Below are positions 1 to 9,248 of a stretch of DNA of 11,154 nt, piece after piece. A program made the position numbers and the translations under genes. The notes below the pieces were generated by a model. That model ran no database searches, was not told the origin of the DNA, and saw only the letters and a list, made by a program, of their open reading frames with translations. Origin of the DNA: Bacillota bacterium (GTDB lineage: Bacteria > Bacillota_C > Negativicutes > Sporomusales > Sporomusaceae); contig JAEZQV010000025.1 in the NCBI GenBank assembly GCA_023441125.1, forward strand, positions 1 to 11,154. Direction: 5' to 3'. Numbering within the stretch: position 1 is the first letter of the stretch; each line of letters starts with the position of its first letter.

Positions 1-415
1 CCAGACTGGTTGGGGCCATTTGACCGCCTGTCATGCCATAAATGGCATTATTAACAAAAATAGTGGTGATTTTTTCGCCTCTGGCCGCGGCATGCACGAT
101 TTCTGCGCAGCCGATAGCGGCCAAGTCGCCATCACCCTGATAGGTGAAGACTACGGCGTCGGGATGAACCCGTTTTACGCCGGTGGCGACAGCCGGCGCG
201 CGGCCGTGGGCAGCCTCAAACGCATCGAAATTGAAATATTCATAAGCCAGCACGGAACCGCCTACCGGCGCAACCCCGATGGCCTTATCCCGGACATCAA
301 GTTCGTCAAGCACTTCGGCAACCAGACGGTGGATGATTCCATGGTGACAACCCGGGCAATAGTGAAAAGCAACATCCTTTAAACCCTTCGGCCGGGAAAA
401 GATTTTCTCTGTCAT
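1..415 (-). CDS. vorA: 2-oxoacid:ferredoxin oxidoreductase beta subunit (TPP-binding), partial
   Basis: My own reading of the minus strand from ATG 415 stays open to the window edge and gives 138 residues of the thiamine-pyrophosphate subunit; the C-terminal part lies outside. The subunit carries TPP/Mg and works with the alpha subunit to decarboxylate a branched-chain or other 2-oxoacid to acyl-CoA while reducing ferredoxin. Visible are CPGC (residues 20-23), the TPP/Mg stretch GDGD (94-97) and [11 protein letters not shown] (122-132), in the order normal for the family. The CPGC is followed by HHG where I would expect GHG. A GGAGG lies 9 bases before the ATG, and only one base separates it from the vorB stop, so the two are co-translated. 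Family assignment is firm. The substrate (2-oxoisovalerate versus 2-oxoglutarate) is not decided by the sequence. Confidence 0.9.
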
Positions 416-416
416 C

Positions 417-1484
417 TCATCGGCCCTCCTTGCCGTGAAAGATACCGGTAATCTGTTCATAGACCGCTTTGGGGCTGGGCATCATACCGCCGGCGCGTCC
501 ATAAAAATATACCGGTTTTGCGCCATTAACAGCCAGGCGTACATCTTCGATCATCTGACCAGCGCTTAATTCGAGGGTTAAAAAAGCCTTGGCGGTATTT
601 GCCAGAGCGGCAAGTGGTTTCTCCGGAAAGGGCCATAAGGTTATGGGGCGCAGCATGCCTACCTTTAGCCCCTGGCTTCTGGCCTTTTCCATGGCTGAGC
701 GGGCTATCCGGGAGGTAATGCCGTAGGCTACCAATACCAGTTCCGCATCAGCCGTGTAGAGCTCTTCATAACGCACTTCCTGGGCGCTAACCTGCGCGTA
801 CTTCTTTTGCAGATGAATATTATGCTGCTCCAGCTTTTCCGGCTGTAAATGCAGTGAATTGATGATATTAGACTCGGTACGGCCTCGCAGGCCGGTAGCG
901 GCCCAGGGTTTGTGAACCGGCTGGGCAGCGCTGGTACTGAATTCAACCGGTTCCATCATTTGTCCCAGGGCGCCGTCGCCTAAGATCATAACCGGATTGC
1001 GGTATTTATCGGCCAGGTCGAAAGCCAAAACGGTGGTATTTACCATCTCCTGTACCGAATTGGGCGCCAGGACGATGTTGCGGTAGTCACCGTGGCCACC
1101 GCCTTTAGTAGCCTGAAAATAATCGGATTGCGCCGGTTGAATGCCGCCTAAGCCGGGACCGCCGCGGACAATATTGACAATAACACAGGGAAGCTCGGCG
1201 CCGGCGATATAGGAAATCCCTTCCATCTTTAAACTGATTCCCGGACTTGAGGACGAGGTCATTACTCTGGCGCCGGCGCCGGCTGCACCGTAAACCATGT
1301 TAATGGCAGCCACTTCACTTTCTGCTTGCAGAAATACGCCATCAATCTGCGGCATCCGTTTGGCCATATATTCAGTCAGCTCTGTTTGCGGCGTTATCGG
1401 ATAGCCAAAGTAATGACGGCAGCCGGCAACAATTGCAGCTTCTCCAATGGCCTCATTGCCTTTCATTAAAATTTTTTCAGCCAC
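417..1484 (-). CDS. vorB: 2-oxoacid:ferredoxin oxidoreductase alpha subunit (VorB type)
   Basis: Alpha subunit of a multi-subunit 2-oxoacid:ferredoxin oxidoreductase, closest to 3-methyl-2-oxobutanoate (ketoisovalerate) oxidoreductase VorB; cytoplasmic, oxygen-sensitive complex. I take the GTG at 1484 as start (355 aa): GGGGAG sits 8 bases upstream and the protein then begins [17 protein letters not shown], as relatives do. An ATG two codons earlier is only 2 bases from that Shine-Dalgarno. Family landmarks are GYPITP (27-32), the conserved Glu57 in [23 protein letters not shown] (76-82) and the glycine-rich RGGPGLGG (about 107-114). Length is typical for the 3/4-subunit enzymes. It lies 5 bases after the ferredoxin gene and 1 base before the beta gene. 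Paralogues using 2-oxoglutarate (KorA) look similar, so the substrate is inferred. Confidence 0.9.
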
Positions 1485-1489
1485 GTACA

Positions 1490-1705
1490 TCACTCCCCTT
1501 TGTCTTTATGAATCTCAATAACCACGTCCGGACAGGTTTTGGCGCAGAGCGCACACCCTACACATTTGGCTTCATCAATGCAGGTAGCCGGCCGGTAGCC
1601 TTTACTGTTAAACCGGTCGGCAAGTACAACAATTTTATGCGGGCATGCTACCGTACAGAGTTCACAGCCTTTGCAGCGTTCTTCGTTGAATACGGGTTTT
1701 GGCAT
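1490..1705 (-). CDS. 2-oxoacid:ferredoxin oxidoreductase delta subunit, 2x[4Fe-4S] ferredoxin
   Basis: A 71-residue bacterial-type ferredoxin with two Cys-x2-Cys-x2-Cys-x3-Cys-Pro sets (Cys 11, 14, 17, 21 and 48, 51, 54, 58), each expected to bind a [4Fe-4S] cluster; Cys42 is extra. It would pass electrons from the TPP site to free ferredoxin. The ATG at 1705 is chosen because GGGAGGGA lies just upstream; the open frame continues 25 codons further, but those residues do not resemble ferredoxin. As first gene of the delta-alpha-beta set it matches the VorD/KorD arrangement. A weak promoter (TACAAT at 1748-1743) could serve it. The gene name depends on the substrate of the complex, so none is given. 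Confidence 0.88.
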   Translation of the reverse strand: MPKPVFNEERCKGCELCTVACPHKIVVLADRFNSKGYRPATCIDEAKCVGCALCAKTCPDVVIEIHKDKGE

Positions 1706-1742
1706 ACGGTTCCCTCCCTTTGTTTTCAATTCATTCAGGAAC

Positions 1743-1768
1743 ATTGTATCCAGTACACAACTATAATA
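1743..1768 (-). promoter_or_regulatory. possible promoter of the vor operon
   Basis: On the minus strand TACAAT (1748-1743) matches the -10 consensus at 5 of 6 positions. The best -35 is a poor TTGATT, with a spacer near 19 bases. It lies after the pduL terminator and about 38 bases before the ferredoxin ATG, where a promoter is needed. Sequence support alone is weak. Confidence 0.3.
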
Positions 1769-1771
1769 ATC

Positions 1772-1804
1772 AAACCCCATGTCGTTCTGTACAACACGGG
1801 GTTT
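1772..1804 (-). terminator. rho-independent-like terminator after pduL
   Basis: The arms 1772-1782 and 1794-1804 form an 11-base-pair stem (AAACCCC core, one G-U pair) around an 11-base loop, starting 19 bases after the pduL stop. On the minus strand it is followed by a moderately T-rich stretch (TTTGATTATTAT). The plus strand also has T-rich sequence after the stem (TTTAAATTT), so it could work in both directions. It separates the aminotransferase-ASCH-pduL unit from the vor operon. Confidence 0.6.
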
Positions 1805-1823
1805 AAATTTACCAGAGCTATTC

Positions 1824-2396
1824 CTATTTTACGAGTTCAACCGTGTCGCCGGTATTGACCTTAGCCGCATTGCCTTCATCTGTGTCAAGATGACATTCCA
1901 GCTTGAAACTGTCACTGACTCTTGCTAAAACATTGTCAAATATCAGACCGCGCTCACCGCCACAGCGAACTTTGACAACATCCTTGTCTTTCAGTCCGAG
2001 GTCAGCAGCATCGGCAATCGTCATATGAATATGACGACAGGCGGCAATAACGCCATCTTCGATTTTGACTTCGCCTTTAGGTCCGACAATGGTAATTCCG
2101 GGAGAGCCTTTTAAATCACCGGAATCACGGACCGGCGGTTTGACCCCGAGCTTGAGGGCATCGGTAAGGGCAATTTCGATCTGCGTTTGTTTACGTTCCG
2201 GACCCAGAATACGAACCTTTTTGAAAGAACCTTTTTCTGTGACTAAATCTACCTGCTCTTCACAGGCAAATTGGCCAGGCTGGGACAGGTCTTTTTTTAC
2301 AGTCAGCTGATATCCTTCACCAAACAGGATATCAAGATGCTCACGCGACACATGCACGTGACGGGCGGAAATACCTACCGGAATTGCTTTAGACAT
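1824..2396 (-). CDS. pduL: phosphate propanoyltransferase (PduL-type phosphotransacylase)
   Basis: PduL enzymes move an acyl group between CoA and phosphate (acyl-CoA + Pi to acyl-phosphate + CoA). They are unrelated to classical Pta. The 190-residue protein has the two-barrel layout: RHVH at 12-15, RHIHM at 121-125 and a C-terminal His169, the His pairs that bind two zinc ions in the family. It begins directly with MSKAIPVGISARHVH, so the N-terminal encapsulation peptide of microcompartment PduL is absent; a cytosolic, housekeeping role is inferred, as in acetogens. The ATG at 2396 has AAGGAG 11 bases upstream; an in-frame GTG at 2408 directly abuts that Shine-Dalgarno and is unlikely. It is the last gene before the terminator at 1772-1804. 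The vor operon downstream could supply its acyl-CoA. Confidence 0.92.
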   Translation of the reverse strand: MSKAIPVGISARHVHVSREHLDILFGEGYQLTVKKDLSQPGQFACEEQVDLVTEKGSFKKVRILGPERKQTQIEIALTDALKLGVKPPVRDSGDLKGSPGITIVGPKGEVKIEDGVIAACRHIHMTIADAADLGLKDKDVVKVRCGGERGLIFDNVLARVSDSFKLECHLDTDEGNAAKVNTGDTVELVK

Positions 2397-2414
2397 GAAA
2401 ATATGCACTCCTTT

Positions 2415-2435
2415 ATTATATTAAATTATATTATA
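2415..2435 (-). promoter_or_regulatory. possible -10 cluster upstream of pduL
   Basis: The 43-base gap before pduL contains three perfect TATAAT hexamers on the minus strand (2435-2430, 2430-2425, 2420-2415). No good -35 is seen: the hexamer 17 bases upstream of the first is TTCCGA, 3 of 6. This may be an internal promoter for pduL or just AT-rich spacer. Confidence 0.3.
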
Positions 2436-2439
2436 CCAG

Positions 2440-2787
2440 CTACTCAATGATCTCGGAAAAATACACCACAGTTACGATATCACTTGCGGTAAGGGTTTTA
2501 TCATAAATGGACTGCAAAAAAGCCAGTAAATCATCGATGCTGGTAAGATCCGGGTTCTCCCCTTGCAAATCATCCATGGTCAGCTGGGATATTGGTTTTA
2601 CTAATACGCGGTCAATGGCAGCGGTAAATATTCTTTTCTTTTGGGAAAAGCGTTTGCCGACAGTAACCCATACTATGTCGCCTTCAGAATATTTGTTGGT
2701 CTTGTCGCCAAGCCTTATGGTGCATATTTTACGGCGGCAAACCAACTGGCTGTGATAATTGGACGAATAAAAATTCAATGCCCTCAT
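2440..2787 (-). CDS. small ASCH/PUA-like domain protein
   Basis: A 115-residue protein that looks like a stand-alone ASCH domain, a PUA-like beta-barrel fold thought to bind RNA or nucleotides. Seen: an early CRRKICTIRLGDK segment (17-29) followed by KYSEGDIVWVTVGKR (32-46), the K-x-x-T-I-R ... G-D-x-V pattern of the fold. A polar middle with LTMDDL (69-74) and PDLTSIDDLLAFLQSIY (79-95) follows, then a strand-like end DIVTVVYFSEI. No signal peptide or membrane segment. The ATG has AGGAGG 8 bases upstream. It follows the aminotransferase by 19 bases and is probably co-transcribed. No catalytic function or RNA target can be read from the sequence; the fold call is by pattern only. Confidence 0.65.
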   Translation of the reverse strand: MRALNFYSSNYHSQLVCRRKICTIRLGDKTNKYSEGDIVWVTVGKRFSQKKRIFTAAIDRVLVKPISQLTMDDLQGENPDLTSIDDLLAFLQSIYDKTLTASDIVTVVYFSEIIE

Positions 2788-2806
2788 CCCAAAATCCTCC
2801 TATTCG

Positions 2807-3973
2807 CTAAGGTTTTATCCATTTTTTTATTCTGCGTACAGCTTCTGCCAGCCGTTCTTCGGGCTGCACCAGGGCTATGCGTACATACCCTTCGCCGCAA
2901 TTGCCAAAAGCACTGCCAGGGATAACAGCAACGCCGGCATTCTTTAACAATGACACAGTGAAGTCAAAAGATGACTGCTGGGTGGGTACCGGCGCCCACA
3001 CATACATGGAAGCTTTCGGCCGGTCTACCCGCCAGCCCAGCTCATTAAAGCCGTCGACAATGATATCCCGGCGCGCCTGATATTTTTTGGCGGTGATAGT
3101 GACGCAGTCCTGAGAGCCGGTCAGAGCAGCAATCGCTGCTTGTTGAAGCGGATAAAATATTCCGTAGTCAAAATTGGATTTTAAGCGTCCCAACAGGGAA
3201 ATTACTTTGGCATTGCCTACCACATAGCCAACCCTGCAGCCGGCCATATTGTAGGTTTTGGACAGGGAATTAAACTCAATAGCGATATCTTTGGCCCCGG
3301 GGATGGATAAAAAGCTATCCGGCCGATAGCCGTCAAATACCAGATCGCTGTACGCGAAATCATAGCATACCAAAATATGGTGCCGTTTGGCAAAGGCAAC
3401 CACCTGCTCTAAGAAGCTGCGCGGCGCTGTGGCCGCCAGTGGATTATTGGGATAATTTAAAATCATAATCTTGGCCCGCTTAAGCACTGTTTCGTCAATG
3501 GCGGCCAAGTCCGGCAGATAGCTATTTGCCGGACTTAGCGGCATACGATAGAGTTCGGCGCCGGCGATGAGCGGACCGGCGCTGAAAATTGGATAGCCAG
3601 GGTCTGGGACAAGGACTATATCCCCCGGATTAACCAGGCATAAAGCTATATGGGCCAGGCCCTCCTGTGAGCCAATGAGGGAATGAATTTCCGTTTCGGG
3701 ATCAAGGTCAACGCCGAATTTACTGTGATACCAGTGGGCAATGGCGTTTAACAGCTCGGGTTGCCCTTTGGATAACGTATAACCATAATTAAAACAGCAA
3801 TCGGCAGCATCCTTTAATGCCTCTACAATGTGTGGTGCTGGTGCCATATCCGGACTGCCAATACTCAAGGTAATAACATCTTTACCAGCGGCAACTTCGG
3901 CTTTGCGCATATCATCCACTTGGGTAAAAATGGCTGAAGTTAATGCCTGCATACGGTTGGCTTGCTCAAACAT
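2807..3973 (-). CDS. class I/II PLP-dependent aminotransferase (DapL/AlaC-like)
   Basis: Fold-type I aminotransferase of 388 residues, near the length of the shorter LL-diaminopimelate aminotransferase group. The PLP lysine is Lys239 in SLSKTYNMAG; Asp205 (CYDFAYSD) should contact the pyridine nitrogen; Asn177 lies in YPNNP. The stretch after YPNNP reads LAATA rather than the usual TGA. Other landmarks are SIGSPD (38-42), GSQEGLAH (101-108) and PDPGYP (124-128). The ATG at 3973 has GGAGGGG 5 bases upstream; an earlier in-frame ATG 7 codons back spans that site. Candidate reactions are LL-diaminopimelate synthesis (lysine/peptidoglycan) or, from its place beside MTA salvage genes, the last transamination of methionine salvage. 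The sequence does not choose. It likely has its own promoter (4031-4059) and leads into the ASCH gene. Confidence 0.82.
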   Translation of the reverse strand: MFEQANRMQALTSAIFTQVDDMRKAEVAAGKDVITLSIGSPDMAPAPHIVEALKDAADCCFNYGYTLSKGQPELLNAIAHWYHSKFGVDLDPETEIHSLIGSQEGLAHIALCLVNPGDIVLVPDPGYPIFSAGPLIAGAELYRMPLSPANSYLPDLAAIDETVLKRAKIMILNYPNNPLAATAPRSFLEQVVAFAKRHHILVCYDFAYSDLVFDGYRPDSFLSIPGAKDIAIEFNSLSKTYNMAGCRVGYVVGNAKVISLLGRLKSNFDYGIFYPLQQAAIAALTGSQDCVTITAKKYQARRDIIVDGFNELGWRVDRPKASMYVWAPVPTQQSSFDFTVSLLKNAGVAVIPGSAFGNCGEGYVRIALVQPEERLAEAVRRIKKWIKP

Positions 3974-4030
3974 GGTTGCCCCTCCAATAGACACGGTATA
4001 GAGTAAGTTACAAGTTAAACGTAGTTATAT

Positions 4031-4090: not shown

Positions 4091-5380
4091 TTATTTAGTG
4101 TTGGCGCCAGTAACCAAACGCAGGCCCCGGCGGTTAACCTCCGCCAGCAGGCGTTCTTCATCGATGGTAGTAAGGTTGTAATTATCCAGCAGAATTTTAC
4201 CGTCGACAATTACCGTATGCACGTCCCGGGCATTGGCTGCGTAGGTTAACAGGGATAAGGCGTCGTGACGGGGATACCAGTACGGTTGTTGCATATCAAA
4301 AATTGTAATGTCAGCCTTATAAGCAGTAGCCAGCCGGCCGGTAACCTGACCCAGACCCAGCGCGCCGGCTCCCTGCACGGTAGCCATGGTGACGGCTGTA
4401 TTGGCCGGAACAGCCAATGGGTCCAGGCGATGAACCTTATGCAGCATGGCGGCCAGCCGGAGTTCTTCGAGCATATCCAAATTGTTGTTGCTGGCAGCAC
4501 CGTCGGTACCCAGCCCCACACAGAGGCCGGCATGAAGCATATCGGGAACAGGCGCCACGCCGCTGGCCAGTTTCATATTGCTGCCCGGATTGTGGGCTAC
4601 CCGGACTTGCTTTTCTTGCATGAGGGCGATATCTTCCGGCGACACATGGACACAATGGGCCGCCAGTACACCGTGGTCAAGGACGTCAAGCTCCGCCATC
4701 AAAGCCATTGGCGATTTGCCGTATTGCTTTTTACAATCGGCTACTTCCTGGGCTGTTTCTGCCAGGTGAATATGAATTTCTGCGCCTAACTTTCCGGCCA
4801 GGGCAGTGACTTTTTTCAGATAATCGGGTGGACAGGTATAGGGGGCATGGGGCCCGAGCATGACCGTAATTTTTCCATCGGCCCCATTATGCCATTCTTT
4901 ATAGAAATTTTCGCTTTCGGCAAGTGCCTGACTGGCCGTGGGGGCCACTCCGGCCATGCCTCTGGCTAAAACGGCGCGAATACCGCTTTCCGCAACGGCC
5001 CTGGCCACTTCGGGCATAAAAAAGTACATGTCGGCAAAACAGGTTGTGCCTGACTTTACCATTTCTGCTATCGCCAACTGTGTTCCCCAGTATACATCTT
5101 CGGCGGTCAGGTTTTCTTCGGCCGGCCAGATTTTGGTTTGCAGCCAGTCCATCAGCAGCATGTCGTCGGCAAAACTGCGAAACAGCGTCATGGCGGCATG
5201 GGTATGGGTGTTGATAAATCCGGGTATTATCAGTTTATTGTGGCAGTCAATGCTTCGCTCTGCCGCCTCTGTGACCGTTCCTAGCTGGGCAATCACCGAG
5301 CCGCGGACAGCCACGTCGGTTTGGCGCACCTGGCCGTCGGCGCATAAGACATTACCGCCCTTAAGTACAAGGTTTAGCAT
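4091..5380 (-). CDS. mtaD: 5-methylthioadenosine/S-adenosylhomocysteine deaminase
   Basis: Amidohydrolase-superfamily deaminase that converts MTA to methylthioinosine and SAH to S-inosylhomocysteine, releasing ammonia; cytoplasmic. At 429 residues it has the family length. Metal ligands are visible: His59 and His61 in THTHAAM, His205 in HIHLAET and Asp293 in GTDGAASNNNLDM. Glu208 of HLAET is the likely proton shuttle, with His178 (GPHAPYTC) and His242 near the substrate. The ATG has GGAGG 6 bases upstream and lies 27 bases after the AhcY-family stop, as last gene of the salvage operon. Relatives include guanine deaminase and other amidohydrolases, but the THTHAAMTLFRS and SNNNLDM signatures fit MTA/SAH deaminase well. 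It is the key partner for the Asn-type phosphorylase and the HxExK hydrolase upstream. Confidence 0.92.
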   Translation of the reverse strand: MLNLVLKGGNVLCADGQVRQTDVAVRGSVIAQLGTVTEAAERSIDCHNKLIIPGFINTHTHAAMTLFRSFADDMLLMDWLQTKIWPAEENLTAEDVYWGTQLAIAEMVKSGTTCFADMYFFMPEVARAVAESGIRAVLARGMAGVAPTASQALAESENFYKEWHNGADGKITVMLGPHAPYTCPPDYLKKVTALAGKLGAEIHIHLAETAQEVADCKKQYGKSPMALMAELDVLDHGVLAAHCVHVSPEDIALMQEKQVRVAHNPGSNMKLASGVAPVPDMLHAGLCVGLGTDGAASNNNLDMLEELRLAAMLHKVHRLDPLAVPANTAVTMATVQGAGALGLGQVTGRLATAYKADITIFDMQQPYWYPRHDALSLLTYAANARDVHTVIVDGKILLDNYNLTTIDEERLLAEVNRRGLRLVTGANTK

Positions 5381-5407
5381 AGCGGGGCCTCCTTTAGCCT
5401 CTTTATA

Positions 5408-6649
5408 TTAAGCGTTACGCAGATATTCCTCCTGAGCGGGGCTAAGCCGGTCAATGCTGAAGCCCATGGCATTGAGTTTAAGGGCTGCGATCCGGTTGTC
5501 CATTTCAGCCGTAACGGTATGTACTTTATTTTCCATGGCGCCATGATTTTGGGCAATGTGCAGCACAGCCAGGGTTTGCATGGCGAACGACAAATCCATG
5601 ATTTCGGTGGGATGACCGTCACCGGCGGCAAGATTGACTAACCGCCCTTCGGCGAGAAGATACAGTTTGCGTCCGTCGGCCAGCAAAAATTCTTCAATAT
5701 TTTTCCGTACCACCCGTCTGGTCTTAGCCAAAGCCGCTAACTCTTCCTTATTGATTTCCACATCAAAGTGCCCGGCGTTGGCCATGATGGCGCCCGGCTT
5801 CATAACCTCCATATGTTCCCGGCGGATAACATCCTTGCAGCCTGTCAGGGTTACGAAGATATCGCCTCTGGCGGCTGCCGCCTGCATCGGCAGGACGGTG
5901 AACCCGTCAAATACGGCTTCAATGGCCTTGATGGGGTCGATTTCGGTAACAATTACATTGGCGCCCAGGCCCTTGGCCCGCATGGCCACGCCTTTACCGC
6001 ACCAGCCATAACCGGCAACCACCACTGTTTAGCCGGTTACTGTCAGGTTGGTAGTCAGCATGATTCCATCCCAGGTAGACTGGCCGGTACCATAGCGGTT
6101 ATCAAATAAATATTTGCAATAGGCGTCATTGACCGCAATCATGGGGAACTTTAAGCGTCCGGCATCCGCTAAGGCCCTTAACCGGATGACCCCGGTTGTC
6201 GTCTCTTCCGAACCGCCCAGAATGTTGCCAAGCAGTTCGCTGCGCCGGCCGTGGAGTAAAGATACCAAATCGCCGCCGTCGTCCACAATGATATCTGGCT
6301 TGGTATCCAGGGCCTTATGCAGAAACTCTTCATACTCCTCGGCTGTCGTGTTGTACCAGGCAAATACCTTGACCCCCTGGGAAGCTAAGGCGGCGGCCAC
6401 ATCATCCTGGGTGGAAAGCGGATTGCTGCCGGTTACCGCCACATTGGCGCCGGCGTTTTTCAGCACCAGGGCGAGATACGCCGTTTTCGCTTCCAGATGC
6501 ATGGTAATTACCAGGTTTTTTCCGGCTAACGGCTTGGTTTGTGATAGCTCGTCATTCAGAATATTAAGGACAGGCATAAATTCCCTGACCCAGTTTATCT
6601 TATCCATTCCCTGCGGGGCTAAGTTAATGTCACGAATCATTGATTCCAT
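5408..6649 (-). pseudogene. ahcY: S-adenosyl/S-inosyl-homocysteine hydrolase interrupted by in-frame TAA
   Basis: NAD-dependent AhcY-family enzyme that splits SAH (or SIH) to homocysteine plus nucleoside. From ATG 6649 (AAGGAG 8 bases upstream) the frame gives 206 residues, a TAA at 6031-6029, then 206 more in the same frame. Before the stop: HLEAK (51-55), VDDGGD (122-127), SEETTTG (147-153), and [13 protein letters not shown] with the expected catalytic Lys179, Asp183 and Asn184. After it: VVVAGYGWCGKG, the NAD Rossmann motif, then AGHFDVE and LLAEGRLVNLAAGDGHP. The stop replaces a position that is normally Lys (G-K-x-V-V-V), so AAA to TAA explains it; no frameshift is seen. The form is the short Thermotoga/archaeal one without the C-terminal Lys-Tyr tail. 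Either a true nonsense mutation, a sequence error, or two separately made halves (GTG at 6025, no ribosome-binding site). mtaD follows. Confidence 0.85.
6029..6031 (-). other. in-frame TAA stop within ahcY
   Basis: TAA occupies codon 207 of the AhcY frame, directly before the NAD-binding GYGWCGKG motif. Homology continues without a gap on both sides. One base change (A to T in a Lys AAA codon) would account for it. TAA is not a selenocysteine or pyrrolysine codon, so recoding is not expected. Confidence 0.9.
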
Positions 6650-6665
6650 GCGTAAAACTCCTTCC

Positions 6666-7709
6666 TTACTTGCACAATATTGATAATTGCTGTATGGCTT
6701 GGTCATAGGGCGCGCGCAACAGCCCGTGCTCGGTGATAATGGCGGTTATTAACGCCTGGGGAGTCACATCGAACGCGGGATTAAACACCTGTACGCCTTG
6801 CGGGGCCACACAGTTTCCCCCGAACGAGGTAACTTCGTCAGCCGACCGTTCTTCAATCGGTATATCGGCACCACTGGCAATGCAAAAATCAAAGGTGGAT
6901 GCCGGGGCTGCGACATAAAACGGGATACCGTGTTCTTTAGCCAGGACGGCGACGCTGTAAGTGCCGATTTTATTGGCTACATCGCCGTTGGCGGCAATGC
7001 GGTCCGCGCCGACAATAACTGCCTGCACCTGTTTGTTTTTCATCACCCAGCCGGCCATATTGTCGGTAATCAGGGTTACGGGAATGCCAGCCTGCATCAG
7101 CTCCCAGGCGGTAAGCCTGGCCCCCTGCAGGAGCGGCCTGGTTTCGTCGGCAAAAACTCTTGTAACATTGCCTTGCGCCCAGGCTTTGCGGATGACGCCG
7201 AGCGCAGTGCCAATATCTACCGTAGCCAGTGCGCCGGCGTTGCAATGGGTAAGAATGGAGGTTGGTTGTGTAAACAGGCTGGCGCCATAGGTTGCCATTC
7301 TGTCATTAACCGCTTTATCTTCCGCCGCAATGGCGATGGCTTCCTCTTCCAGCGCCGCGATGGCGGCCGCTGTGGCAGAACCTTCCGGTAAACGGTCCAG
7401 TACGGCCAGCATGCGGTCAATGGCCCAGAACAGATTAACCGCCGTCGGTCTGGTCTGACGCAGCGCCATAGCCGTTTGGGCTAATTGACACTTGAATTCG
7501 GGCAAGGCAAGTGCCGCCTGTTCGCGGGCCCCCAGTACCAGGGCGAAGGCCGCGGCCGCGCCGATAGCTGGCGCGCCGCGCACTTCCAGCCGGCGGATGG
7601 CTTCGGCTGCCCGCCGCCAGTCGTGACAGGTAATCGTCTCGACGCGATTTGGCAATAATGTCTGATTTAGCAAGGTAAGACAGTCATTCGACCATTCCAG
7701 TGTCCGCAT
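6666..7709 (-). CDS. mtnA: S-methyl-5-thioribose-1-phosphate isomerase
   Basis: Isomerises the aldose methylthioribose-1-phosphate to the ketose methylthioribulose-1-phosphate, the step after nucleoside phosphorolysis in methionine salvage. The 347-residue protein has the family's landmarks: VRGAPAIG (43-50), [13 protein letters not shown] (87-99), the catalytic Cys156 in [19 protein letters not shown] (215-223) and the catalytic Asp236 in [19 protein letters not shown]. These match Cys160 and Asp240 of the Bacillus enzyme allowing for an offset. The ATG at 7709 follows a GGGGGT about 10 bases upstream and lies 15 bases after the phosphorylase stop. The fold is shared with eIF2B subunits and 5-deoxyribose-1-phosphate isomerases, and such enzymes may also take 5-deoxyribose-1-phosphate. 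The later salvage genes (mtnB, mtnW/X or mtnC, mtnD) are not in this window. Confidence 0.93.
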
Positions 7710-7724
7710 TAGTAGTCTTACCCC

Positions 7725-8516
7725 CTATAATTTAAACCCGCCGTATTCGGCTAAGGCGTGCTGGCAGGCACAGTCCGTATCCGGCGCCAGGCGCTCAATG
7801 GCTGCCAGGATAAGCTGTTTTATATTTTCGGTGTTGGCTTGCATGGTCTCCAGAACTTCGTGATGCGTTAACGGCTGCGGTGATATGCCGGCAGCAAAGT
7901 TAGTTACCATTGAAATAGTGGCATAGCACATTTCGGCTTCCCGGGCCAGTATGACCTCCGGCACGTTGGTCATGCCGACAACATCGCCGCCAAACTTGGC
8001 AAACATCTTGATTTCCGCCGGCGTTTCAAAGCGCGGGCCTTCGGTGCAGACATAGGTCCCCGCTTGGTGCATGGTTATACCCAGTTTAGCAGCCGTTTCG
8101 GCCACTACAGCCCGGATGGACGGACAATAAGGAGTTGTTACGTCAACATGTACAACTCCCCTGGCGCCCCCTTCGTAAAACGTGGTCGTTCTGTTTTTAA
8201 TAAAATCAAGAAACTGATCAATGAGTACAAAATTACCCGGTTTCATAGCCAGATTCAGTGAGCCAACCGCGGTCGTGGCGATGATATTTTTTACGCCCAG
8301 TTTTTTCATAGCCCAAATATTGGCCCGGTAGTTGATGAGATGAGGCGGAATGGAATGTTTGCTGCCATGACGGGGAATAAAGGCGATTTCCTTGCCAGCA
8401 TATTCCCCGCTCATAAACCGGACCACGCCGTATGGGGTTGGAATTACCTGCTCGCGCACATTATTGAGAATCTTCGGATCATACACGCCTGTTCCGCCAA
8501 TAATTGCGATGTTCAT
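7725..8516 (-). CDS. mtnP: MTAP-family phosphorylase, probably methylthioinosine-type
   Basis: Purine nucleoside phosphorylase of the MTAP branch, cleaving a 5'-methylthio-nucleoside with phosphate to free base and methylthioribose-1-phosphate. At 263 residues it is full length. Seen: the phosphate-site RHG (49-51), TTAVGSL (81-87), CTEGPRFETPAE (157-168) and GMTN (181-184). At the base-specificity loop it reads Asn206-Phe-Ala208, whereas human MTAP has Asp-x-Asp there; Asn is typical of 6-oxopurine enzymes, and the Asn-x-Ala pattern is, as I recall, that of the Pseudomonas methylthioinosine phosphorylase. With mtaD in the same operon, methylthioinosine is the likely substrate, though annotation pipelines will say MTA phosphorylase. 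ATG at 8516 with AGGGGGAT upstream; 17 bases after the HAD gene and 15 before mtnA. Confidence 0.9.
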   Translation of the reverse strand: MNIAIIGGTGVYDPKILNNVREQVIPTPYGVVRFMSGEYAGKEIAFIPRHGSKHSIPPHLINYRANIWAMKKLGVKNIIATTAVGSLNLAMKPGNFVLIDQFLDFIKNRTTTFYEGGARGVVHVDVTTPYCPSIRAVVAETAAKLGITMHQAGTYVCTEGPRFETPAEIKMFAKFGGDVVGMTNVPEVILAREAEMCYATISMVTNFAAGISPQPLTHHEVLETMQANTENIKQLILAAIERLAPDTDCACQHALAEYGGFKL

Positions 8517-8533: not shown

Positions 8534-9178
8534 TTATAGTTCTAACTCGCAGATTGCAAGCAAATCTTCTATCGTATTCAGGATATAGTCAGGCTGTTCG
8601 GCTAACAGGTTGTCCCAGGCAATCTGAGTCCAGCGGACCGCAGCCGTTTTTACGCCGGCGGCCCGGGCGCTGGCTAAATCGAAGGGACTGTCACCGACCA
8701 TTAGGCAGTCAGCCGGCGCAAGCTTTATGGCGGCAAGGGCCTTATATACCGGTTCGGGATCAGGCTTGTGCTTCCTGCACTCTTCATGGCCAATAACCGC
8801 CGCAAAGCACTGATCCATATGAAACAGTCTGAGTCCCCGCAGGGCTGTACCGCGGCTCTTGGAAGTTACTATCGCCATTAGTATGCCCGCATTGTAAATT
8901 TTCCGGATGGTTTCCGGTACGCCCGCAAAGCCGGTGGTTAGCTGGTCATGGTGAGCAAGGTTAAATTCACGGTAGGTGTTTATAAGTTCATCCACTTTAT
9001 CCGGACCGTAATGCTCCATGGCGGCCTTGAGCGGCTTGCCGAAAAAGGCATACACCTCTGCCGCCGTAAGCGGACGGCCGTAATGCCGCGTAAAAGTATG
9101 CTGAAAGGAACGGATAATCAGGTTGGATGTATCAATGAGCGTGCCGTCAAGATCAAATAAGATGCCTTTAAATTTCAA
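8534..9178 (-). CDS. HAD-family phosphatase (PpaX/Gph-like)
   Basis: Haloacid-dehalogenase-type hydrolase of 214 residues, the length of pyrophosphatase PpaX and phosphoglycolate phosphatases. All four HAD motifs are present: FDLDGT with nucleophile Asp9 and acid/base Asp11, TSKS (105-108), Lys138 in KHKPDPEP and VGDSPFD (161-167, Asp163). A helical cap lies between motifs I and II (about 17-85), including FFGKPL. I choose the TTG at 9178 because GGGGAGGT sits 6 bases upstream and the protein then starts MKFKGILFDLDGT; the open frame extends 14 codons further through the Shine-Dalgarno. It is the first gene of the salvage operon, 17 bases before mtnP. The substrate is not readable: pyrophosphate, phosphoglycolate or a salvage intermediate are all possible. 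Confidence 0.85.
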   Translation of the reverse strand: MKFKGILFDLDGTLIDTSNLIIRSFQHTFTRHYGRPLTAAEVYAFFGKPLKAAMEHYGPDKVDELINTYREFNLAHHDQLTTGFAGVPETIRKIYNAGILMAIVTSKSRGTALRGLRLFHMDQCFAAVIGHEECRKHKPDPEPVYKALAAIKLAPADCLMVGDSPFDLASARAAGVKTAAVRWTQIAWDNLLAEQPDYILNTIEDLLAICELEL

Positions 9179-9184
9179 TTGCTG

Positions 9185-9192
9185 ACCTCCCC
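9185..9192 (-). promoter_or_regulatory. ribosome-binding site deciding the TTG start of the HAD gene
   Basis: GGGGAGGT on the minus strand, 6 bases before TTG 9178. It lies inside the longer open frame and so rules out the upstream extension. Confidence 0.8.
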
Positions 9193-9248
9193 TGGAGTGT
9201 TGCCTGTTATAAACCGGCAAACAGGAGCCTGTGGAAGGCCTCTGTCAG

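Follow-up and report, generated by a model that had tools for sequence, protein, structure and literature searches.

The DNA analysed here, called the window below, is an 11,154-nucleotide stretch of contig JAEZQV010000025.1 from a member of the Sporomusaceae. It carries four neighbouring minus-strand genes, mtnP, mtnA, ahcY and mtaD, whose products are predicted to act on the by-products of S-adenosylmethionine (SAM), namely 5'-methylthioadenosine (MTA) and S-adenosyl-L-homocysteine (SAH). An earlier note on this DNA had described a tight operon, and the four genes do lie on one strand with gaps of 15 bp (mtnP-mtnA), 16 bp (mtnA-ahcY, counted from the ATG at 6649) and 27 bp (ahcY-mtaD). We consider it reasonably probable, from the sequences and from the way that three enzyme variants co-vary across genomes, that this is a deaminate-first salvage operon for MTA and SAH. 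Gene identity, linkage, residue patterns and co-variation are what was observed, and from these we infer every reaction assigned to this organism. The host is a relative of Sporomusa, as the best MtaD match among the named genomes of the 80 related loci kept is that of S. acidovorans (84% identity).

Predicted specificity of the encoded enzymes

The first gene, mtnP (7725-8516, minus strand), encodes a 263 aa phosphorylase of the methylthioadenosine phosphorylase (MTAP) family, and both its NCBIfam scores and its residue alignment point to the 6-oxopurine, or methylthioinosine (MTI), type. It passes the cut-offs of TIGR01694 (MTAP; 319.5 against 274.85) and of PRK09136/NF006599 (methylthioinosine phosphorylase; 256.5 against 223), the latter being a cut-off passed by all four Asn-type proteins scanned but not by the single Asp-type protein scanned, an adenine-type control with 195.6 bits. 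The Asn-Phe-Ala that the earlier note had placed in the base-specificity loop is present at residues 206-208. Glu164 (codon 8027-8025), Asn206 (7901-7899) and Ala208 (7895-7893) correspond in the alignment to Ser, Asp and Asp of the best five MTAP chains of known structure, human MTAP being one of them, and 3ozb, the structure of the Pseudomonas aeruginosa MTI phosphorylase, is among the structure matches. The pattern was then read in 141 rows, comprising the window and 140 of the 150 typed MtnP hits described below: Glu164 and Asn206 occur together in 97/97 Asn-type rows (window included) and Ser/Asp/Asp in 24/24 Asp-type rows, the remaining 20 being in the wrong frame or unclear. In human purine nucleoside phosphorylase (PNP), Glu201 and Asn243 contact the 6-oxopurine, and we take Glu164 and Asn206 of MtnP to be their equivalents. 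Thus typed, the window MtnP is predicted to prefer MTI. Two other candidate indicators were dropped, namely His218 as a sign of inosine use, which is equally common in the adenine type (21/24 against 85/97), and, as a PNP yardstick, another PNP-family protein from a Sporomusa-type genome (L356), which proved too divergent for the purpose.

Downstream, mtnA (6666-7709, minus strand) encodes a 347 aa methylthioribose-1-phosphate isomerase (TIGR00512, 443 against a cut-off of 279). It is followed by ahcY (5408-6649, minus strand; 413 codons plus stop), which family models and 413 aa orthologues identify as an S-adenosyl/S-inosylhomocysteine hydrolase. The ATG at 6649, which has a plausible ribosome site ahead of it, is the most likely start because many relatives are 413 aa long. 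Its nucleobase-binding fingerprint, HxExK, reads HLEAK (6485-6499, minus strand), as the earlier note had reported. The meaning of this motif comes from Koeppl et al. (2024, PMC10978960): SAH hydrolases (SAHHs) with HxExK prefer S-inosyl-L-homocysteine (SIH), those with HxTxE(Q) prefer SAH, and the Lys of the former group, which includes Thermotoga maritima, is able to bond the O6 of hypoxanthine. The earlier note's statement that archaeal HxExK enzymes prefer SIH is thereby borne out in print, and the fingerprint makes the window AhcY a candidate SIH-preferring enzyme (EC 3.13.1.9).

The ahcY gene is interrupted. Codon 207 of 413 is an in-frame TAA (6029-6031, minus strand), which the earlier note had implied by calling for an intact orthologue; the flanking codons are in frame and conserved, and the reading frame goes on to its normal end. 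Both halves still pass PRK05476.2-3 (321 and 328 against 275). Their non-synonymous distances (dN) to S. acidovorans, used alone because synonymous distances were mostly saturated, are 0.046 and 0.097, compared with 0.106 for mtaD and 0.110 for mtnP, and these low values imply that the stop is either recent or a sequencing error. Recoding by pyrrolysine or selenocysteine is not expected, the codon being TAA and not TAG or TGA.

The last gene, mtaD (4091-5380, minus strand), encodes a 429 aa amidohydrolase-family protein (PF01979), which from model matches and alignment to structure chains appears to be a deaminase of MTA and SAH (EC 3.5.4.28/31), and probably also of 5'-deoxyadenosine. It matches models for 5'-deoxyadenosine and MTA/SAH deaminases, none at its curated cut-off among the matches listed (25 of 52): PRK07228 gives 366 against 522, PRK15493 gives 314 against 779, and the highest score, 509.9 against 609, belongs to PRK06038, a model named for N-ethylammeline chlorohydrolase. 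The nearest solved relatives include 4f0r, named as an MTA/SAH deaminase, and TM0936 of T. maritima (1p1m/2plm). Two residues of TM0936, Arg136 and Arg148, are presumably its contacts to the SAH carboxylate, and Arg136 aligns with Arg140 of the window MtaD (codon 4963-4961), which is kept in 76/80 relatives.

Taken together, these assignments outline a possible route. MtaD would strip the 6-amino group from MTA, SAH and probably 5'-deoxyadenosine; the 6-oxopurine-type MtnP would phosphorolyse MTI, probably along with 5'-deoxyinosine and inosine, to release hypoxanthine and a (methylthio)ribose-1-phosphate for isomerization by MtnA; and the HxExK AhcY would split SIH into inosine and homocysteine.

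Conservation of the gene cluster in related loci

Related loci were taken as the best 80 of 575 MtaD loci, a selection that favours close relatives. Of these, 65 contain ahcY, 46 mtnP and 42 mtnA, and 36 contain all four genes, held within 6.5 kb on a single strand in 35 of the 36; the suggestion that so pointed a gene set is no accident has therefore held up. The linked AhcY has the HLEAK motif in 63/63 cases where the motif is readable, all of them full length, and the MtnP loop carries Asn in all 43 readable cases among the 46. HLEAK clusters occur in records named Sporomusa, Pelosinus, Lucifera, Pectinatus, Selenomonas, Mitsuokella, Megasphaera, Phascolarctobacterium, Thermincola and Desulfoscipio, most of which are genera of mesophiles.

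Several loci depart from the full set. In S. acidovorans (L001) the order is mtnP-ahcY-mtaD without mtnA, the only mtnA-like gene elsewhere in the genome being 47% identical. Acidaminococcus-type loci (L029, L032, L042 and L066) have a HAD phosphatase gene, an mtnP with an Asn-Met/Leu-Gly loop and mtaD, with no ahcY or mtnA in the stretch examined. Selenomonadales-type loci (L020, L022-L027, L045, L050 and L055) have only ahcY-mtaD, beside surE, with mtnP and mtnA not nearby. Finally, 28/80 loci (L034, L052, L063, L064 and L075 among them) have a class II aldolase gene whose start lies no further than about 0.8 kb upstream of mtaD, which suggests that methylthioribulose-1-phosphate meets an end like that of the dihydroxyacetone phosphate (DHAP) shunt in those loci. 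There is no such gene in the window cluster, the 27 bp between ahcY and mtaD holding no gene, and in the four nearest genomes (G001-G004) the best aldolase matches are 41-42% identical and outside the cluster.

Co-variation of the three enzyme variants across genomes

The earlier note had proposed a survey of co-occurrence, which we carried out on 199 genomes from the phylum to which G001 (the genome that carries locus L001) belongs, by searching for AhcY, MtaD and MtnP and reading their motifs. Strong MtaD matches (E <= 1e-100) were found in 142 genomes, weak ones (down to 1e-60) in 17 and none in 40. The 124 clear AhcY hits, from 120 genomes, comprise 107 HxExK, five HISAK, four HVTTE, two HVTAK and two HVTSK, with one each of HVTPK, HVSAK and HIEAT and one cut off. 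MtaD accompanies a Lys-type AhcY in 114/115 genomes (107 strong, seven weak, one none) and an HxTxE AhcY in 0/4, and the combination of HxExK AhcY, Asn-type MtnP and strong MtaD is found in 84/199. In total, 177 MtnP hits were present in 151 genomes, and as the 150 typed came from 138 genomes, extra adenine-type copies may be missed in the following counts: where the MtnP was typed, the Asn type is present in 105 and the Asp type in six of the 106 genomes with strong MtaD, and among the 22 without MtaD, 17 have the Asp type (15 at first, with copies found later in G020 and G187) and 13 the Asn type. Genomes with AhcY also differ from the remainder in two further enzymes searched for, LuxS being found in 0/120 against 35/79 and MtnN in 9/120 against 35/79. 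Fisher p-values calculated on any of these counts ignore kinship.

In a tree of 122 of the 124 AhcY rows, the HxTxE and HxS/TxK sequences form one clade. This was enlarged by a search of 398 genomes in which the query was the HxTxE AhcY from G115; the 30 loci typed, together with G187 of the first survey, gave 15 HxTxE and 16 HxS/TxK genomes, four of the 35 nearest genomes (G274, G252, G286 and G394) being untyped and outside these counts. Counting strong MtaD only, unlike the first survey, the deaminase is found in 0/15 HxTxE and 15/16 HxS/TxK genomes. Thirteen of the HxTxE genomes have no MtaD match at 1e-40, and the matches in G343 and G212 are only 34-35% identical (best 1.3e-75 and 1.1e-57, respectively). 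The phosphorylases divide along the same line, with an adenine-type MTAP in 15/15 HxTxE and 0/16 HxS/TxK genomes, the MtnP of the latter being of the Asn type only in 11/16 and giving no hit in 5/16.

With HxExK as the root of a 64-row tree (33 of the rows being hand-picked HxExK sequences), the HxS/TxK sequences form a clade (99/97) within a paraphyletic HxTxE, the latter forming one side of a branch in just 4% of bootstrap trees. Because of this nesting, a second gain of the O6-contacting Lys of AhcY, coinciding with MtaD, is probable. The mtaD-less arrangement is illustrated by G115 (L262), where the genes are mtnP (Asn-type), mtnA, an aldolase, ahcY (HVTTE), apt, an isochorismatase-like gene and mtnP (Asp-type), the apt and isochorismatase labels being our presumed reading of the sequences. 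The Asp-type mtnP of G277 likewise has a neighbour homologous to this apt, making 2/15 such loci (about 1.5 kb searched on each side), and none of the 80 mtaD loci has one.

Genes flanking the operon

A PpaX-like HAD phosphatase (8534-9220, minus strand; PRK13288, 236.7 against a cut-off of 218) lies 17 bp upstream of mtnP and is probably on the same transcript; several related loci likewise have a homologue ahead of their mtnP. The order of transcription is queE-like, surE, DUF3792, HAD phosphatase, mtnP, mtnA, ahcY, mtaD, aminotransferase, ASCH-domain protein, pduL and 2-oxoacid:ferredoxin oxidoreductase, where the queE and surE labels, and those of the oxidoreductase pieces other than 417-1493, are assignments that we presume. 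The block after mtaD (2-3994; aminotransferase, ASCH, pduL and oxidoreductase) wholly or partly adjoins mtaD in relatives such as L008, L012, L015 and L016, and could have a putative role in degrading or remaking a methylthio 2-oxoacid. A defence role for the ASCH and DUF3792 proteins was considered and set aside, as PADLOC gave no match. No riboswitch was found in the window or in relatives L001, L003, L005 and L012, in which none of Rfam's 4227 families matched at gathering score.

Discussion

The co-variation of MtaD, Asn-type MtnP and Lys-type AhcY, in both the 199 genomes and the enlarged clade, supports the deaminate-first interpretation that the earlier note had put forward. The two halves of the route differ in security. 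That MTA is deaminated before it is cleaved we regard as quite likely, and this is the safer part; that SAH is likewise handled as SIH is less safe, and we hold it to be moderately probable. More broadly, we lean slightly towards the view that anaerobic Bacillota with AhcY switch the base chemistry of their SAM by-products as one module: MtaD would go with an Asn/Glu MtnP and a Lys AhcY, and its absence with an HxTxE AhcY and an adenine-type MTAP, the latter in some cases adjoined by apt. If the Lys did arise two or more times together with the deaminase, the deaminate-first route would then be a common lifestyle of anaerobes and not a thermophile or archaeal curiosity.

A number of observations weigh against this interpretation. 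In the window itself the SAH branch is broken by the ahcY stop, and the second presumed carboxylate contact of TM0936, Arg148, aligns with Ala152 of MtaD. Among the genomes surveyed, G130 has an HxExK AhcY and no MtaD; G242 has HISAK and neither MtaD nor MtnP; G150, G176 and G201 have HxExK with a weak MtaD and only an Asp-type MtnP typed; G030 has MtaD with only an Asp-type MtnP typed; and G343, an HxTxE genome, would count as having a weak MtaD under the rule of the first survey. Independent contrasts number only one to three, fewer than the six that a significant sign test would require, and the sign test is non-significant. In the literature, the assayed HxExK enzymes retain some SAH activity, and although a deaminase homologue is present in all Euryarchaeota examined, SAH is the preferred substrate of four of their SAHHs, two of the four organisms having a second SAHH isoform (PMC10978960). 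Outside the phylum the match is therefore not a universal one, since in these Euryarchaeota and in P. aeruginosa a deaminase occurs alongside an SAHH that prefers SAH.

The most substantial of the alternatives is that the enzymes are used in parallel, with AhcY cleaving both SAH and SIH, MtaD serving chiefly for MTA, 5'-deoxyadenosine or adenosine, and the SAH branch running only partly deaminate-first. The missing Arg of MtaD and the MtaD-less HxExK genome G130 would both fit such an arrangement. Nevertheless, the assayed HxExK enzymes prefer SIH (PMC10978960), the other Arg, Arg140, is conserved in nearly all of the related MtaD proteins, and a second lineage seems to have gained both the Lys and MtaD, its MtaD-less relatives having no such Lys, and we therefore consider parallel use doubtful, if a serious contender. 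It is far less probable that the MTA branch alone is deaminate-first and that ahcY is a mere neighbour, lost in this organism. The stop in the window and the Acidaminococcus-type mtnP-mtaD pairs without ahcY speak for this, but every readable linked AhcY has HLEAK, the AhcY type tracks the presence of MtaD, both ahcY halves have low dN, and the Selenomonadales-type loci L045, L050 and L055 retain ahcY-mtaD where mtnP and mtnA are not nearby.

We give equally little credence to shared ancestry as the whole explanation, by which the three variants would travel together through descent or linkage with no match of substrates. The HxExK rows require just two changes on the tree, and one to three independent pairs leave the sign test unable to reach significance. 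Against this stand what looks like a second origin of the Lys within the HxTxE clade and the clean division of the adenine-type MTAP between HxTxE and HxS/TxK genomes. Moreover, in six HxS/TxK genomes (G034, G075, G112, G143, G170 and G195) ahcY is distant from the mtnP-mtaD pair, lying on another contig in five, which are drafts, or about 183 kb away, and thus tight linkage does not explain the association there.

If the deaminate-first reading is correct, the AhcY motif becomes a predictor, readable from a genome, of the nucleoside (adenosine or inosine) made from SAH and MTA, and HxS/TxK AhcY enzymes are predicted to prefer SIH too; HxTxK has already been described as a motif of extremophiles (PMC10978960). 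The SAHH of P. aeruginosa reportedly carries HxTxQ. The earlier note had called a combined bacterial route little described, which is fair for bacteria, although the principle is not new, T. maritima being already in print (PMC10978960). Our literature searches found no account joining S-inosyl-L-homocysteine, methylthioinosine and deaminase, or mtaD, ahcY and mtnA, and none of such a route in Negativicutes or Sporomusa, PMC10978960 naming neither group; as subscription papers fell mostly outside these searches, this is weak evidence of absence.

Among known systems, the scheme as a whole is found in Methanocaldococcus jannaschii, in which SAH is deaminated by DadD and SIH hydrolysed by SIHH (PMC10978960), and a 5'-deoxyadenosine deaminase is joined by a phosphorylase (MTIP) acting on MTI and 5'-deoxyinosine (PMC6302742); unlike the window's host, this is an archaeal hyperthermophile. 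T. maritima shares with the window an SAH deaminase, TM0936, with which the window MtaD aligns, and an SIH-preferring HxExK enzyme, TmSAHH (PMC10978960), but is a thermophile and has an MTAN homologue. P. aeruginosa has the MTA half, converting MTA to MTI and then to methylthioribose-1-phosphate and hypoxanthine (PMC6302742), but its SAHH prefers SAH (PMC10978960), which again counts against a general rule. The DHAP shunt (MtnP or MtnN/MtnK, MtnA and Ald2) resembles the window in its MtnP-MtnA pair, and the related loci in their class II aldolase, but the accessible part of its description, for MTA and 5'-deoxyadenosine, has no deaminase step (PMC8102628), and the window cluster has no aldolase. 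The scheme is thus known from M. jannaschii and in part from T. maritima and, for the MTA half, P. aeruginosa; what is new here is its probable occurrence as a single operon in anaerobic Bacillota, together with an apparent matched switch of enzymes.

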